Assembly (NCBI RefSeq): GCF_001570905.1
Contig: NZ_BCSO01000001.1
Coordinates: forward strand, 372,001 to 436,000
Direction of reading: 5' to 3'
Length of the DNA stretch: 64,000 nucleotides
DNA from: [Zimmermannella] alba NBRC 15616
Lineage (GTDB): Bacteria; Actinomycetota; Actinomycetes; Actinomycetales; Microbacteriaceae
Shown here: positions 36,144 through 42,051 of the stretch, one piece after another
Numbering within the stretch: position 1 is the first letter of the stretch
Layout: each line of letters opens with the position of its first letter
Notes under the pieces: model-generated
What the model saw: the letters and a program-made list of their open reading frames with translations, nothing else
The model's database searches: none
Told to the model about the DNA's origin: nothing
Translations under genes and position numbers: made by a program

Positions 36144-37877
36144 ATGGCAGCACGCACGACGGGATCATCGGATTCCGAGCAGGAGACAGCAGCCGCTGCG
36201 AAGCCGGCAGCCAAGCGCACGTCGACTCGCACCTCGACCCGCGCGTCGTCGAGCACGACGGCGAAGAAGCCGAGCACGCGCAAGACCGCTGCTCAGAAGA
36301 AGGCCGAAGCAGAGGCTGCTGCCGCCGCTGAGGGTGCAGGCGAGCAGAGCGCTGAGGCCGGGACGGCAGCCAAGAAGCCTGCCGCGAAGAAGCCCGCGAC
36401 CAAGCGCACCACCACGCGCAAGAGCGCTGCTCAGAAGAAGGCCGAGGCAGAGGCCGCAGAGGCACCCGCCGAGGACGCCAAGCCTGCCGCGAAGAAGCCC
36501 GCGACCAAGCGCACCACCACACGCAAGACGGCCGCCCAGAAGAAGACGGAGGCAGGGGCTGCCGCAGCCGAGACGAAGCCTGAGCCGAGCGACGAGAGCG
36601 CGGAGGCTGAGGAGAAGAAGCCCGCGACGCGTCGCCGCACGACGACCGCCAAGAAGACCACGGCCAAGAAGACCACGGCCAAGAAGACGACCGCGAAGAA
36701 GTCGACGGCCAAGAAGGTCGCCGAGGACGAGATCGTCGAAGACGAGATTGACGCCGAGGACGAGCTCGACGTCCACGCTGCCGACGACGTCGACACCGAC
36801 GACGACACCGAGGCAGAGTCCGACGACAAGGATGACGAAGTCGACGACATGGATGACTCGGATGCACCGCTCACCGCGGTGGCCGCAGGCGCTATGGTCC
36901 TCTCGGCCTCCTCGGGTGACGACGAAGCCCCCGTCTACTCGGCAGCCATCACGGGTGCCACCGCTGACCCGGTGAAGGACTACCTCAAGCAGATCGGTAA
37001 GGTCGCGCTCCTCAACGCAGCTGAAGAGGTCGACCTCGCGATGCGTATCGAGGCAGGTCTGTTCGCAGAAGAGAAGCTCAAGGAGGCAGAGGCCTCGGGC
37101 GAGAAGCTCGACAAGCAGCTCATCCGTGAACTCAAGTGGGTCGCCCGTGACGGCCAGCGCGCGAAGAGCCACCTGCTCGGCGCGAACCTCCGTCTCGTCG
37201 TCTCGCTCGCGAAGCGCTACACGGGCCGCGGCATGCAGTTCCTTGACCTCATCCAGGAAGGCAACCTCGGTCTCATCCGTGCCGTCGAGAAGTTCGACTA
37301 CACGAAGGGCTTCAAGTTCTCGACCTACGCCACGTGGTGGATCCGTCAGGCCATCACGCGCGCCATGGCCGACCAGGCGCGCACCATCCGTATCCCGGTG
37401 CACATGGTCGAGGTCATCAACAAGCTCGCCCGAGTCCAGCGCCAGATGTTGCAGGATCTCGGTCGCGAACCCACCCCGGAAGAGCTCGCCGCTGAACTCG
37501 ACATGACTCCCGAGAAGGTCGTCGAGGTGCAGAAGTACGGTCGTGAGCCGATCTCGCTCCACACGCCGCTCGGTGAAGACGGTGACTCGGAGTTCGGCGA
37601 CCTCATCGAAGACACCGAAGCTGTCGTGCCAGCAGACGCCGTGAGCTTCACGATGCTGCAACGCCAGCTCGAGTCGCTCCTCGACTCGCTGTCCGAGCGT
37701 GAAGCGGGCGTCATCCGCATGCGCTTCGGCCTTGGTGACGGCATGCCGAAGACACTCGACCAGATTGGTGACACCTTTGGCGTAACGCGCGAGCGCATCC
37801 GCCAGATCGAGTCGAAGACCATGGCAAAGCTCCGCCACCCCTCGCGTTCGCAGTCGCTGCGCGACTACCTCGAGTAG
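36144..37877 (+). CDS. sigA: Primary RNA polymerase sigma factor
   Basis: 577-residue sigma-70 factor. A ~260-residue N-terminal extension has three copies of a [22 protein letters not shown] unit, then TTAKK repeated four times, then a strongly acidic run (about 198-240). The sigma core begins near residue 273: region 1.2 [17 protein letters not shown], region 2 with [39 protein letters not shown] and [18 protein letters not shown]-type motif ([18 protein letters not shown]), region 3, and region 4.2 with [24 protein letters not shown] 36144 has AAAGAGG 7 nt upstream. murT follows 8 bp later. Confidence 0.97.
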
Positions 37878-37885
37878 GAGACACG

Positions 37886-39169
37886 ATGGCTTTCAACCCT
37901 TTGACGCCGCTCGCGGTCGGTCTCGGCCGCGCGACCCGTGTTGCCATGCGTCTGCGTGGCGGTGGCTCGGCCATGCCCGGTCACGTCGCGCGCACGCTTG
38001 ACCCCAACTTCCTGGGGCGCGCCGTTGAACGCCTGCCTCGCGGGGTGGTGTTCGTGACCGGCTCCAACGGGAAATCCACGACCACCGCCTACGTCACGAG
38101 CGTGCTCCGGGGCCATGGCCTTCGCGTCTTCACGAACGGTTCGGGCGGCAACATGCCGCAGGGCATCGTCTCAGCGATGCTCGGAGATGTCGACTGGCAG
38201 GGACACCTCAACGCCGACATCGCCGTGCTCGAAGTGGATGAGGCGATCTGTCGTCTTATCGCTCCGGCCCTGAAGCCTCGCGTTGGCGTCCTCCTCAATG
38301 TCCAGGTGGACCACCTCAACCGCTTCTACGACCCGGCTCGCGTCGCGAACTACCTGCTCGACTTCGCCAAGATGTGCGGCGAAGCCGTCGTCTTGAACGC
38401 TGACGACACGAATCTCCGCCGCATTGCGCCGGAGATGGTCGTTGACCGCGCCTGGTTCGGCATCGACTCCGAGGTCGCAGCTCGCGTGTCGAGTGGCCTC
38501 CCGAGCTACAAGGCCCCCGGCGTAGAGATCGACGAGATTCCGGCATCTGAGCGCACCGCGCAGGTCGTGGACCTTGTCGGCCAGACGGCAACGATCGAGT
38601 TCCATGGTGAAGTTGCACGCGTCGAGCTGCCCGCTCGCGGCATGCACTACGCGATTGACGCGGCAGCGGCGCTCACGGCTGGCTACCGCCTCCTCGGCGA
38701 GGAGTTCTCGCTCGAAGCGGGTGCTCGCGCGCTCTCGACGATGGACACGGTCTACGGCCGCGGCGAAATCATGATGGTCGAAGGTCAGGAGATCGAGATC
38801 ATCCTCATGAAGAACCCGCCGAGCCTGCGCATGAACCTCGACGCGCTCGAGAAGAAGCCGGACGTGCTCATGTTCGCGATGGATGAAGGCAGCCCCGACC
38901 CGTCGTGGATGTACGGCATCGACCTCTCGAAGCTGGGCGGCGTTGACATCACGACCGGTACGAAGGCCGCCCAAGTTGCCACCTTCTTCGGCTACCAGCA
39001 CCTGCCGGTGGGCAAGGTCATCCCGAATAACGCCGAAGCGATCCGCGCGTTCCTCGCCCTCCCGGCACCCGAGGAGGGGCGCAAGCTCATCATCGCCAAC
39101 TACGAACAGACCATCGCACTGCGCCGCATTATGGGCCAGTCGGGTATCGAGGGGAAGCACAACTCGTGA
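37886..39169 (+). CDS. murT: MurT-like Mur-ligase, diverged (no Cys4 ribbon)
   Basis: 427-residue homologue of MurT, the ligase half of the lipid II isoglutaminyl synthase that activates the alpha-carboxyl of D-Glu. The Mur-ligase P-loop is intact (TGSNGKSTTTAYVTSVL), as are LEVDEA and KNPPSLRMN. However the Cys4 zinc-ribbon insert of staphylococcal MurT is absent (only two Cys in the whole protein, both elsewhere), the FRDQxDR segment reads NVQVDHLNRF, and the DGxDxSWxxD motif of the DUF1727 domain is reduced to PDPSWMYG. It starts 8 bp after sigA and overlaps gatD by 4 bp. Probably still a Mur-type ligase, with the acceptor or amine changed. Confidence 0.85.
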   Translation: MAFNPLTPLAVGLGRATRVAMRLRGGGSAMPGHVARTLDPNFLGRAVERLPRGVVFVTGSNGKSTTTAYVTSVLRGHGLRVFTNGSGGNMPQGIVSAMLGDVDWQGHLNADIAVLEVDEAICRLIAPALKPRVGVLLNVQVDHLNRFYDPARVANYLLDFAKMCGEAVVLNADDTNLRRIAPEMVVDRAWFGIDSEVAARVSSGLPSYKAPGVEIDEIPASERTAQVVDLVGQTATIEFHGEVARVELPARGMHYAIDAAAALTAGYRLLGEEFSLEAGARALSTMDTVYGRGEIMMVEGQEIEIILMKNPPSLRMNLDALEKKPDVLMFAMDEGSPDPSWMYGIDLSKLGGVDITTGTKAAQVATFFGYQHLPVGKVIPNNAEAIRAFLALPAPEEGRKLIIANYEQTIALRRIMGQSGIEGKHNS

Positions 39170-39936
39170 GCATCGACATCCTTCACCTGTTCCCGGACGA
39201 ACTCGGCATCAACGGTGACGTCGGCAACGCCATGGCCCTCGCCGAGCGCGCACGCGCGCGCGGCATCGACGCGACGATCACCAAGATTGGCCTGAACGAC
39301 GAGCTCCCCGAGCACGCGGACGCCATCGTGATCGGCTCCGGCCCGCTTGCTGCTGTGCAGGCGGTGCTTCGGGCACTTGAGCGCATGGCTCCGCAGCTTC
39401 GCCGCTGGCGTGACCGCGGCGTCGAGTTTGTTGCCATCGGTGGCGGCTGGGATGCCCTCGGAGAGCGCATCACCCTCGCGGACGGGGCAGTCCTCAACGG
39501 TGCAGGAGTGTTTCCGACGCGCTCGATTCGCGGCGGCAAGCAGCGCGTGGGGGAGACCGTCGTCCGGATGCCCGAAGGCCTCATCGTCACCGGCTTCTCG
39601 AACCACGACTCGATCATGGAAGGCATCGACCAGGCCACCATGCTCGGCACGGTGCTCAAGGGCCACGGCAACGAGGCAACGAAGAAGAGCGCGGAAGGCT
39701 ACCGTCGCGAGAACCTTCTCGCCTCAAACCTTCACGGCTCGCTCCTCACGATGAACCCGCGCCTTGCTGACGACGCGCTCTATCACGCGGCCGAGCACGC
39801 CCGCGCACGCGGTGCGATCGCGAACACGATCGACCTCAACCTGCGTACGAGCTGGCTCGACGAGGTGGACGGCTACGCCGAAGCGAGCCGCCGCGCACTC
39901 ATTGCGCGCGTGGGCGTGAAGATCGAACACTCCTAG
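39166..39936 (+). CDS. gatD: GatD-like amidotransferase subunit lacking the catalytic Cys
   Basis: 256-residue homologue of GatD, which normally hydrolyses glutamine to give NH3 to MurT. The usual ICGGYQLLG nucleophile elbow reads IGGGWDALG (91-99), so Gly92 stands where Cys94 is in S. aureus. The GGGQDREQ segment reads GSGPLAAVQ (57-65). The catalytic-type His (His190 in NLHGSLLTMNP) and the GFxNH segment remain. The fold is kept but glutaminase activity is not expected. GTG/ATG overlap with murT (4 nt) indicates a fixed-ratio complex. Confidence 0.87.
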   Translation: MSIDILHLFPDELGINGDVGNAMALAERARARGIDATITKIGLNDELPEHADAIVIGSGPLAAVQAVLRALERMAPQLRRWRDRGVEFVAIGGGWDALGERITLADGAVLNGAGVFPTRSIRGGKQRVGETVVRMPEGLIVTGFSNHDSIMEGIDQATMLGTVLKGHGNEATKKSAEGYRRENLLASNLHGSLLTMNPRLADDALYHAAEHARARGAIANTIDLNLRTSWLDEVDGYAEASRRALIARVGVKIEHS

Positions 39937-39954: not shown

Positions 39955-42051
39955 GTGGCCACACCGCAAAGCGAGGACCAGTATTCGGCACGACACCTCT
40001 CGGTCCTTGAGGGCTTGGATGCCGTCCGGAAGCGTCCTGGCATGTACATCGGTTCGACCGATTCACGTGGCCTCATGCACTGTCTCTGGGAGATCATCGA
40101 CAACTCTGTCGATGAAGCGCTCGCAGGGCACGGCGATTCCATCACCATCGGGCTTGACCCGGACGGCTCGGTCGTGGTGGAAGACCACGGCCGTGGCATC
40201 CCGGTTGATATCGAGCCGAAGACAGGCCTGTCGGGCGTTGAAGTCGTCTTCACGAAGCTCCACGCTGGTGGCAAGTTTGGCGCCTCGAACTACGGCGCCG
40301 CCGGTGGTCTCCACGGTGTCGGTGCCTCCGTCGTGAATGCGCTCTCGGCACGCCTGGACGTCGAAGTTGATCGTGGCGGCAAGACCTATGCGATGAGCTT
40401 CCGCCGCGGCGAGCCCGGCGTCTTTGACGACCCGAATGGGGTGAAGAGCCCTGACTCGCCGTTCACCCCCTTCCAGGCAGGCACGGAACTGCCCGTGATC
40501 GGTAAGGCGAAGCGCGGGGTCACAGGTACGCGTGTGCGCTACTGGGCAGACCCGCAGATCTTCATCAAGGAAGCTGTCTTCTCGCTGGACGACCTCCTCG
40601 CGCGCGCACGCCAGACCGCCTTCCTCATCCCGGGGCTCGAGATCGTGCTTGAAGACCGCCGAAGCGACGAGCACGTGCGCCAGGCGTTCAAGTTCGACGG
40701 CGGCATTTCGGAGTTCGCCGATTTCCTTGCCAGCGATGCACCAACGACCGACACCTGGCGCTTTGAAGGCGACGGCGACTACAGCGAAACCGTGCCAATG
40801 CTCGACGACAACGGCCACATGGTCTCGCGCGAGGTCGAACGCAGGATGCACGTGGATGTGGCGCTGCGCTGGGGGACCGGCTACGACACGACGGTGAAGA
40901 GCTTCGTCAACATCATCGCGACGCCCAAGGGCGGTACGCACCAGCAGGGCTTCGAACAGGGCCTCATGCGCACGATCCGGGCCGAGGTGGAGAAGAACGC
41001 ACGCCGCCTCAAGGTCGGCAACGACAAGCTCGAGAAGGACGACGTACTCGCGGGTCTCACGGCGGTCGTGACCGTCCGCATCCCCGAGCCCCAGTTTGAG
41101 GGCCAGACGAAGGAAGTGCTCGGTACCCCGCCTGCCCGTCAGATCGTCGCGAACGTTGTCGCTCAGGGCATCCGTGAGCGCTTTGCCGCGACCGGACGTA
41201 TGCAGAAGGCCGAATGCTCCCTGCTGCTCGACAAGGTCGTCTCCGAGATGAAGTCGCGCATCTCCGCGCGCGCCCACAAGGAGACGCAGCGCCGCAAGAA
41301 CGCGCTCGAATCGAGCTCGCTGCCCGCAAAGCTCGTCGACTGCCGATCGAATGATGTTGAGCAGTCCGAACTCTTCATCGTCGAGGGTGACTCGGCGCTT
41401 GGCACCGCGAAGCCTGCCCGTAACTCTGAGTTCCAGGCGCTCCTGCCGATTCGAGGCAAGATCCTCAACGTGCAGAAGGCGTCCCTCTCGGACATGCTCT
41501 CGAACGCGGAATGCGCGAACATCATCCAGGTGATCGGCGCTGGTTCCGGGCGCAGCTTTGACCTTGACGCGGCACGCTACGGCAAGGTCATCCTCATGAG
41601 CGACGCGGACGTCGACGGCGCCCACATTCGCACGCTGCTGCTGACGCTCTTCTTCCGCTACATGCGTCCCATGATCGACGCCGGGCGCGTCTATGCCGCA
41701 GTGCCGCCACTGCACCGCGTGGTCGTCTTGAATCCCGGCTCAAAGCCGAACGAGACCATCTACACCTACTCGGAGCGTGAGCTCCACACGCTGCTGAAGA
41801 AGCTCGAGCAGCGCGGCAAGCGTTACCAGGATCCGATCCAACGGTACAAGGGCCTTGGTGAGATGGATGAAGACCAGTTGTGGGAGACGACCATGAACCC
41901 TGCCGCCCGTCTACTGCGCCGTGTTACGGTCAGTGACGCTGCGGCAGCCGAGCGAGTCTTCGAGCTGCTCATGGGCAATGACGTCGCCCCGCGCAAGGAA
42001 TTCATCGTTGCCGGCGCACAACACATCGACCAGGAGGCCATTGACGCATGA
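39955..42051 (+). CDS. parE: DNA topoisomerase IV / gyrase-like subunit B
   Basis: 698-residue type IIA topoisomerase ATPase subunit. The GHKL ATPase has IIDNSVDEALAGHG, DHGRGIPVDIEPKTG and LHGVGASVVNALS; the Toprim domain has LFIVEGDSALG and MSDADVDGAHI. It lacks the long insert of Gram-negative GyrB. Placement near sigA and opposite parC supports ParE over GyrB. GTG 39955 has AAAGGA upstream at wide spacing. azlC overlaps its stop (ATGA). Confidence 0.93.
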   Translation: MATPQSEDQYSARHLSVLEGLDAVRKRPGMYIGSTDSRGLMHCLWEIIDNSVDEALAGHGDSITIGLDPDGSVVVEDHGRGIPVDIEPKTGLSGVEVVFTKLHAGGKFGASNYGAAGGLHGVGASVVNALSARLDVEVDRGGKTYAMSFRRGEPGVFDDPNGVKSPDSPFTPFQAGTELPVIGKAKRGVTGTRVRYWADPQIFIKEAVFSLDDLLARARQTAFLIPGLEIVLEDRRSDEHVRQAFKFDGGISEFADFLASDAPTTDTWRFEGDGDYSETVPMLDDNGHMVSREVERRMHVDVALRWGTGYDTTVKSFVNIIATPKGGTHQQGFEQGLMRTIRAEVEKNARRLKVGNDKLEKDDVLAGLTAVVTVRIPEPQFEGQTKEVLGTPPARQIVANVVAQGIRERFAATGRMQKAECSLLLDKVVSEMKSRISARAHKETQRRKNALESSSLPAKLVDCRSNDVEQSELFIVEGDSALGTAKPARNSEFQALLPIRGKILNVQKASLSDMLSNAECANIIQVIGAGSGRSFDLDAARYGKVILMSDADVDGAHIRTLLLTLFFRYMRPMIDAGRVYAAVPPLHRVVVLNPGSKPNETIYTYSERELHTLLKKLEQRGKRYQDPIQRYKGLGEMDEDQLWETTMNPAARLLRRVTVSDAAAAERVFELLMGNDVAPRKEFIVAGAQHIDQEAIDA

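Follow-up and report, generated by a model that had tools for sequence, protein, structure and literature searches.

Cysteine-less MurT/GatD-like pair in the rpoD-parE interval of Microbacteriaceae as a proposed ligase for the type B peptidoglycan cross-bridge

MurT/GatD amidates the α-carboxyl of D-Glu in lipid II with ammonia taken from glutamine. In type B peptidoglycan, a long-used taxonomic marker, the cross-link runs through D-Glu rather than through residue 3, and the D-Glu α-carboxyl carries the cross-link amino acid where MurT/GatD amidates elsewhere. Microbacteriaceae are a family known for type B walls. This work deals with a MurT/GatD-like gene pair (positions 37886–39936) in a 64,000-nucleotide stretch of the genome of a member of this family, [Zimmermannella] alba NBRC 15616 (contig NZ_BCSO01000001.1, positions 372,001 to 436,000), below called the window. 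A first-pass annotation made from the sequence alone had taken the pair, devoid of the glutaminase Cys and of the Cys4 ribbon, for a repurposed ligase of type B cross-bridges with a non-glutaminase GatD. We consider it likely, from comparison of sequences and loci, that the pair is a MurT/GatD-derived ligase repurposed to attach the cross-bridge amino acid to the D-Glu of type B peptidoglycan. This central idea of the annotation gains comparative support, since the glutaminase parts are lost while the ligase half is intact, racemase-like genes share the interval, unrelated amide ligases occur as replacements and the ligase clades track the bridge amino acid; the ribbon loss, which the annotation counted as part of the change, does not belong to it. 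The open-licence full texts searched named no enzyme for the first bond of the type B bridge and contained nothing on MurT in Microbacteriaceae or on the relation between ribbon and Cys.

Several functional positions have been assigned in the described enzymes. The conserved Asn of the GAN motif (Asn85) was tied to the acceptor carboxylate and Asp112-Glu113 to Mg, and the loop 135–143 with Arg135 was presented as a gate towards GatD (PMC6085368). S. aureus C94 and D349 mutants lose amidation, both Ser and Gly replacements of C94 being inactive (PMC6113224); a mutant of the Asp matching D349 was only reduced according to the other report (PMC6085368).

In the window, the gene of the proposed bridge ligase, a MurT-like protein lacking the Cys4 ribbon (37886–39169, 427 aa), and the gene of a GatD-like subunit lacking the catalytic Cys (39166–39936, 256 aa) are enclosed by an rpoD-like sigma factor gene (36144–37877) on the left and a parE-like topoisomerase subunit gene (39955–42051) on the right. 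All four open reading frames (ORFs) are on the + strand, and the GTG start of the gatD-like gene overlaps the murT stop. The Mur P-loop GSNGKSTTT (MurT residues 59–67, 38060–38086) is intact, as are Asp118-Glu119 and Asn89, which aligns with the conserved Asn of the GAN motif, and the protein has no CxxC. The counterpart of the RDQLDR ammonia-gate loop reads VDHLNRF (residues 141–147, 38306–38326), with Val141 in place of the gate Arg. DPSW (residues 338–341, 38897–38908) includes Asp338, the counterpart of S. aureus MurT D349. In the GatD-like subunit Gly92 (39439–39441) replaces the catalytic Cys, which is found in 34/34 Cys-type pairs, and GSGPL (residues 57–61, 39334–39348) replaces the GGG(Q/E)D segment. 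Arg126 (39541–39543), aligned with Arg128 of S. aureus GatD, is the counterpart of the glutamine-capturing Arg, and the former catalytic His190 (39733–39735) is kept. The P-loop, residue 92, the GSGPL segment and His190 had all been read in the same way by the first-pass annotation; of the two MurT motifs that it called altered, RDQxDR has indeed become VDHLNR, and the second is only partly changed, as its Asp is retained.

Pfam searches gave Mur_ligase_M (1.9e-14) and, under its cut-off, MurT_C (0.013) for the MurT-like protein, and GATase_3 (3.8e-17) for the GatD-like one. The closest solved structures by sequence are MurT and GatD (5n9m at 3.7e-19 for the latter), and the scores are far below the NCBIfam equivalog cut-offs (93.5 of 800 bits for MurT; 91.6 of 450 and 71.6 of 400 for GatD). 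The predicted MurT structure (pLDDT 88, pTM 0.88) is matched best by MurT chains of the PDB, followed by pseudomurein ligase, MurC and MurF, with further matches to MurD and MurE chains. The window MurT is 52–53% identical to that of Pseudoclavibacter, which is also its neighbour in the housekeeping tree; among the sampled genomes, a Pseudoclavibacter one (G073, the strain of L100) carries the label of the window's genus.

Loci from a sample of 120 Microbacteriaceae genomes were fetched, read and sorted into groups A–D. The GatD query had matches in 92 of these genomes, and a MurT profile search found further ones among its strongest matches. Window-like, Cys-less pairs (group A) occur in 77 genomes, pairs with Cys and no ribbon (group B) in 12, pairs with both Cys and ribbon (group C) in two, and pairs with His at the place of the GatD Cys (group D) in seven. 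G038 and G081 entered group A by MurT alone (no GatD seen) and G099 by its Cys-less GatD, its MurT being cut by the contig end. Group D MurT has two CxxC in five loci (L088, L091, L094, L097, L246) and a single CxxC in the ribbon region in two (L089, L096). Divergent Cys-less relatives of the pair are present in G005 and G053; another divergent Cys-less pair, in L065, has a racemase-like gene beside it. Cys is present in 20/20 pairs fetched from other families of the order, where 47 genomes had a match. The reading of the window pair as an isolated decayed copy was rejected, since such a pair is found in 77 of the 120 genomes. The sequence sets exclude L001 (a copy of L005), L002–L004 (other GATases) and a weak match in L210; their counts are not independent, as some loci come from the same strain, e.g., L011 and L100.

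A second, Cys-bearing GatD in the genome would, according to the first-pass annotation and in combination with amidated D-Glu in the wall, speak against repurposing. None was found among the GATase_3 matches of the window's own 2.14 Mb genome: there are three other matches only, which we read as PurQ, HisH and PdxT, the HisH assignment being accompanied by adjoining hisA- and hisB-like genes and the PdxT one resting on a PdxS-like neighbour alone. In two of the 120 genomes (G054 and G066) groups A and B do occur together, suggesting that each pair has a task of its own.

Conservation was compared between 152 Cys-less sequences and the 34 Cys-type pairs at positions at least 97% conserved in the latter; as the larger set was chosen by the missing Cys, the Cys figure itself is no test. 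The oxyanion Gly58 of GatD (second Gly of GGG) is retained in 2% of the Cys-less sequences, Tyr16 in 0% and His190 in 63%. The gate Arg141 of MurT, present in 34/34 Cys-type sequences, has a frequency of 0%. MurT residues Lys63, Asn89, Glu116, Asp118, Glu119, Arg146 and Asp338 are each 100% conserved. GatD Arg126 is kept in 93%, suggesting that GatD may still bind an amino acid. Gate-loop residue 143 (38312–38314 in the window) is Gln in 99% of the Cys-less set and His in the window alone among the sequences read, giving DHL. A reversion to Mur-ligase chemistry, which this His might signal, was discarded, since in the remaining Cys-less members read the residue is Gln or, rarely, another. At MurT residue 258 (38657–38659, + strand) Asp is found in 99% of Cys-less sequences and Asn in Cys-type ones. 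By our own count this is the place of S. aureus N267, listed among the ATP-site mutants in the S. aureus paper (PMC6113224), and a changed nucleotide preference is conceivable.

As for the Cys4 ribbon, the first-pass annotation was right about its absence and wrong about its meaning. A two-CxxC scan did not detect it in 14/20 Cys-type pairs outside the family (two of the 14 keep one CxxC), nor is it present in 12/12 group B pairs, all of them Cys-type. Ribbon loss is therefore not part of the oddity and was rejected as a meaningful change; judging from this distribution, the absence of the ribbon is older than, and unrelated to, the loss of Cys. In a MurT tree of 90 sequences (quick search, midpoint root) 48 Cys-less ribbon-less sequences form one clade (SH-aLRT 100) beside the Cys-type ribbon-less ones, and group D, with long branches, forms a separate clade (SH-aLRT 97) in the Cys4 part of the tree. 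With A and D in separate clades, Cys was probably lost twice, independently in the two lineages.

The genomic position of the pair is highly constrained. rpoD lies beside murT in 80/80 named group A loci, and parE is present in 79 of them, the 80th being cut by a contig end. In the remaining set rpoD adjoins the pair in 68 of 73 A loci; the exceptions (L011, L021, L026, L083, L087) are mostly short or cut stretches, L087 being a second copy from an assembly with 6% contamination. The pairs of 7/7 group D genomes (L088, L089, L091, L094, L096, L097, L246) occupy the same rpoD-parE place. All these A and D pairs beside rpoD are Cys-less, and rpoD was within the stretch read for 0/14 group B or C pairs of the family. 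In nine genomes with only group B, in G005 and in five genomes with none of these ligases, rpoD and parE are adjacent, except that transporter-like genes separate them in two of these genomes, G049 and G119. Two genomes were left out when the interval was judged: G022 (no true rpoD match) and G065 (interval not displayed).

In genomes lacking MurT/GatD, the interval can hold the same racemase-like genes together with other ligase genes, namely those of CofE-like (PF01996) and ATP-grasp (PF14397) proteins, and in L188 and L218 also a class III aminotransferase gene. Two CofE-like proteins scored 29.6 and 47.1 bits against the PF01996 cut-off of 25. The CofE-like gene occurs in 17/120 genomes, none of which is an A or D genome; zero overlap of A (77) with CofE (17) has p = 2e-9 if the two are independent and kinship is ignored. 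In the CofE loci (L189–L193, L218, L220, L247–L252, L257–L260) the gene is located between rpoD and parE wherever both borders are visible. There are 20 genomes with a clear ATP-grasp gene: 14 have CofE, four D and two divergent A (G018, G099); two weak matches (G014, G051) are left out of the count. Members of a genus may differ in their ligase, having either A or CofE in three genera and either A or D in three, besides the genus of G106. The latter provides the sharpest picture, since among its 109 genomes 18 have the A pair, 91 have CofE, none has both and none has neither. The probability of this exact complement by chance is 6e-21, a figure that ignores kinship and so overstates the case. 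This genus is Microbacterium-like, the five nearest MurT being from four Microbacterium loci and one titled Planococcus. (Locus L129, whose record is titled Planococcus sp. APC 4015, is Microbacterium-like and the record is probably mislabelled.) Among ten stretches read from this genus, murT-gatD-alrB-alrA was found in 4/4 A genomes and cofE with ATP-grasp in 6/6 others; both racemase-like genes accompany cofE in four of the six, alrB stands at the stretch end in one, and one has none. Such a complement looks like alternative enzymes for one needed step. By its gene content, the rpoD-parE interval acts like a cassette in which amide ligases can replace one another: the A pair, the D pair or CofE-like, the last usually with ATP-grasp.

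Bridge amino acids have been documented for a number of genera of the family. D-Glu carries a bridge of D-2,4-diaminobutyrate (DAB) in Clavibacter (PMC9603630). Herbiconiux has type B2-gamma with D- and L-DAB (PMC10011130), Subtercola B2-gamma with DAB, Agreia L-DAB with D-Orn and Frondihabitans B2-beta with D-Orn (PMC5945732). D-Lys was recorded for Frigoribacterium, DAB for Cryobacterium and Glaciihabitans, Lys and Orn for Salinibacterium (PMC7033078), D-DAB for Rhodoluna (PMC4156110), and, with differences between strains, D-Orn, L-Lys or DAB for Microbacterium (PMC10757982). The tree of named A-type MurT unites Agreia, Salinibacterium, Frondihabitans and Frigoribacterium in a single clade (100/99), the Orn/Lys clade, which also holds Curtobacterium and three Microbacterium whose chemistry is not documented. 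Clavibacter, Herbiconiux, Subtercola, Cryobacterium and Rhodoluna, all with DAB, fall outside it, and Microbacterium BR1 has a ligase from the DAB side. In the RpoD+ParE+PAC2-like tree, Subtercola boreus and Herbiconiux gentiana group with Agreia (96/95, with a bootstrap that had not fully settled); the Agreia MurT, unlike that of its housekeeping relative Subtercola, comes from the Orn/Lys clade. Eighteen positions set the Orn/Lys clade apart, including 145 in the gate loop and 308, which adjoins Lys309-Asn310-Pro311. Residue 145 is Tyr in the Orn/Lys clade and Asn or Asp in the DAB clades, residue 308 is Phe in the former and Val or Met in the latter, and the two are predicted to contribute to specificity. 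Judged by the MurT tree, the ligase clades agree at the genus level with the documented bridge amino acids. The relation of Cys loss to wall type, brought up by the first-pass annotation, could be followed at the same level for named genera: the Cys-less pair occurs in type B genera and follows their bridge amino acid. The window MurT has Asn145 and Met308, as in one DAB clade, and D-DAB is predicted to be the bridge amino acid of the window organism.

One or two alanine-racemase-like genes were found near the pair in 51 of the first 179 loci, and in named loci where gene order was drawn they lie between gatD and parE. Both genes, here alrA and alrB, are present in 67 loci (for example, L100:7074–8821, − strand). 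Both belong to alanine racemase families, alrB being short and without most of the N-terminal domain. In the alignment the Lys that binds pyridoxal phosphate (PLP) is present in 69/69 readable AlrA sequences and in 0/52 AlrB sequences, which mostly have Arg. AlrA and AlrB together resemble a racemase made of two subunits, which may act on the bridge amino acid. Strict complementation of the two was rejected, as several pairs have no catalytic Tyr in either member, and this leaves the heterodimer only a suggestion. A single-sequence fold prediction of AlrA had a pLDDT of 41, and no account of a heterodimeric alanine racemase of such kind was found in the literature searched. The class III aminotransferase in the cassettes of L188 (L188:3405–4670, − strand) and L218 (L218:1145–2464, + strand) is a candidate maker of the diamino acid. 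In the CofE loci read (L260 is cut) an L188-like ATP-grasp gene comes with racemase-like genes and an L195-like one stands alone, without racemases; this pairing would fit D- versus L-diamino acids.

The loss and conservation pattern, the gene interval, the near-complete exclusivity of the ligases and the phylogeny were established in this analysis. The reaction, its substrate and the role of GatD we infer as follows. A ribbon-less MurT/GatD ancestor would have given rise to a glutaminase-dead descendant, in which MurT activates the α-carboxyl of D-Glu2 in a peptidoglycan precursor with a nucleotide triphosphate. In place of channelled ammonia, an amino acid would then attack the acyl phosphate, the D-diamino acids D-DAB, D-Orn and D-Lys being the most likely ones. 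This would install the initial residue of the type B cross-bridge, which in these genomes probably has no other. GatD would be retained as a partner, and its old glutamine pocket with Arg126 may hold the incoming amino acid. Microbacterium bridges contain Gly plus a diamino acid. A genomes mostly have no second ligase and CofE loci mostly have ATP-grasp, and one- versus two-residue bridges would fit this.

Several observations weigh against such a ligase and such a cassette. The glutaminase-site residues Asp338 (100%), Arg126 (93%) and His190 (63%) are retained in the Cys-less set, which leaves room for a role of glutamine or ammonia. With G053 counted as CofE, an A, D or CofE ligase is lacking in 19 of the 120 genomes; 13 of these carry a B, C or divergent pair at another place. 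In G053 itself a divergent CofE-like gene (35% identity; 239-aa ORF, L219:4186–4902, − strand) directly precedes a divergent pair of Cys4 MurT and Cys-less GatD-like genes (L219:2107–4200, − strand); the pair is away from rpoD, and a racemase-like gene is alone between rpoD and parE. The exclusivity of A and CofE is thus not absolute, this being the one exception found. A CofE-MurT fusion was considered here and rejected, the CofE-like part being in another frame, as a separate ORF directly before murT. The agreement of clades with chemistry is partly due to shared ancestry, since Frondihabitans, Frigoribacterium and Curtobacterium are close by housekeeping genes too; the chemistry is known by genus and not by strain (10 genera with A-type loci, nine of them in the MurT tree), and the genus of the sampled genomes was inferred from similarity. 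Finally, a single alanine-racemase-like gene is the only alrA/alrB match in the window genome, and the DAB-clade genomes with Rathayibacter and Plantibacter mostly have one racemase-like gene as well (G078 has two and G097 four).

Among the other explanations, we consider it unlikely that the pair still amidates D-Glu with free ammonia in place of glutamine, GatD being a relic scaffold. The intact MurT site and the keeping of Asp338, Arg126 and often His190 agree with this, yet Clavibacter has the pair (L113) and a D-DAB bridge on its D-Glu (PMC9603630), and in two genomes a Cys-type pair is retained in addition. Amidation would also leave the racemase-like neighbours, the exclusion of CofE and the clades that follow the diamino acid unexplained. 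It is equally improbable, in our view, that the pair ligates glycine or another residue, the diamino acid being added by a different enzyme. The glycine-containing Microbacterium bridges speak for this, as does the ATP-grasp gene present also in 14/17 CofE genomes, as expected of two-residue bridges; however, 75/77 genomes with the pair lack that gene, and the MurT clades track the diamino acid. An acceptor other than peptidoglycan D-Glu, or a different polymer, is very unlikely given the link to bridge chemistry and the 100% retention of Asn89, which matches the acceptor-carboxylate Asn of the GAN motif (PMC6085368). A degenerating pseudo-enzyme with no function, which the lost glutaminase site might bring to mind, is extremely unlikely in view of the pair in 77/120 genomes, the 100% conserved ligase residues and the exact complement with CofE in 109 genomes.

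We therefore prefer the bridge amino-acid ligase and, with about even confidence, extend it to the whole locus. The rpoD-parE interval would be a type B cross-bridge cassette, in which unrelated or independently altered ligases (two lineages of Cys-less MurT/GatD, CofE-like and ATP-grasp) and a split alanine-racemase pair set the amino acid placed between D-Glu and the D-Ala of the neighbour, and GatD would now be the amino-acid-binding subunit of a Mur-type ligase. If true, this provides candidate genes for the first type B bridge bond and a case of an amidotransferase converted into an amino-acid ligase. It may also explain the differences in bridge amino acid between and within genera and would offer a gene-based predictor of wall type.

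The closest known system is the MurT/GatD lipid II isoglutaminyl synthase of S. aureus and S. pneumoniae, which has in common with the window pair the fold, the two-gene order, the P-loop, the Mg-binding Asp-Glu, the acceptor Asn and the Asp of DxSW (PMC6113224, PMC6085368). Unlike it, the window pair lacks the Cys, the second oxyanion Gly, the gate Arg and the ribbon; it adjoins rpoD, and its family is one known for type B walls. The racemase-like genes of the cassette may be set against PddB, a 2,4-diaminobutyrate racemase that interconverts L- and D-DAB (PMC8225329); PddB is DapF-like and PLP-independent, whereas the cassette genes belong to alanine racemase families. CofE (F420-0:gamma-glutamyl ligase) represents an amide ligase family by name, whose members fill the rpoD-parE interval where genomes lack the pair; it belongs to a Pfam family (PF01996) unrelated to MurT, and its role at the locus is putative. 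The MurC-MurF amino-acid ligases, which have a UDP-binding N-terminal domain, perform the same reaction as that proposed for the window pair, the attack of an amino acid on an acyl phosphate. They have no GatD partner, and the proposed acceptor of the window pair is a side carboxyl.

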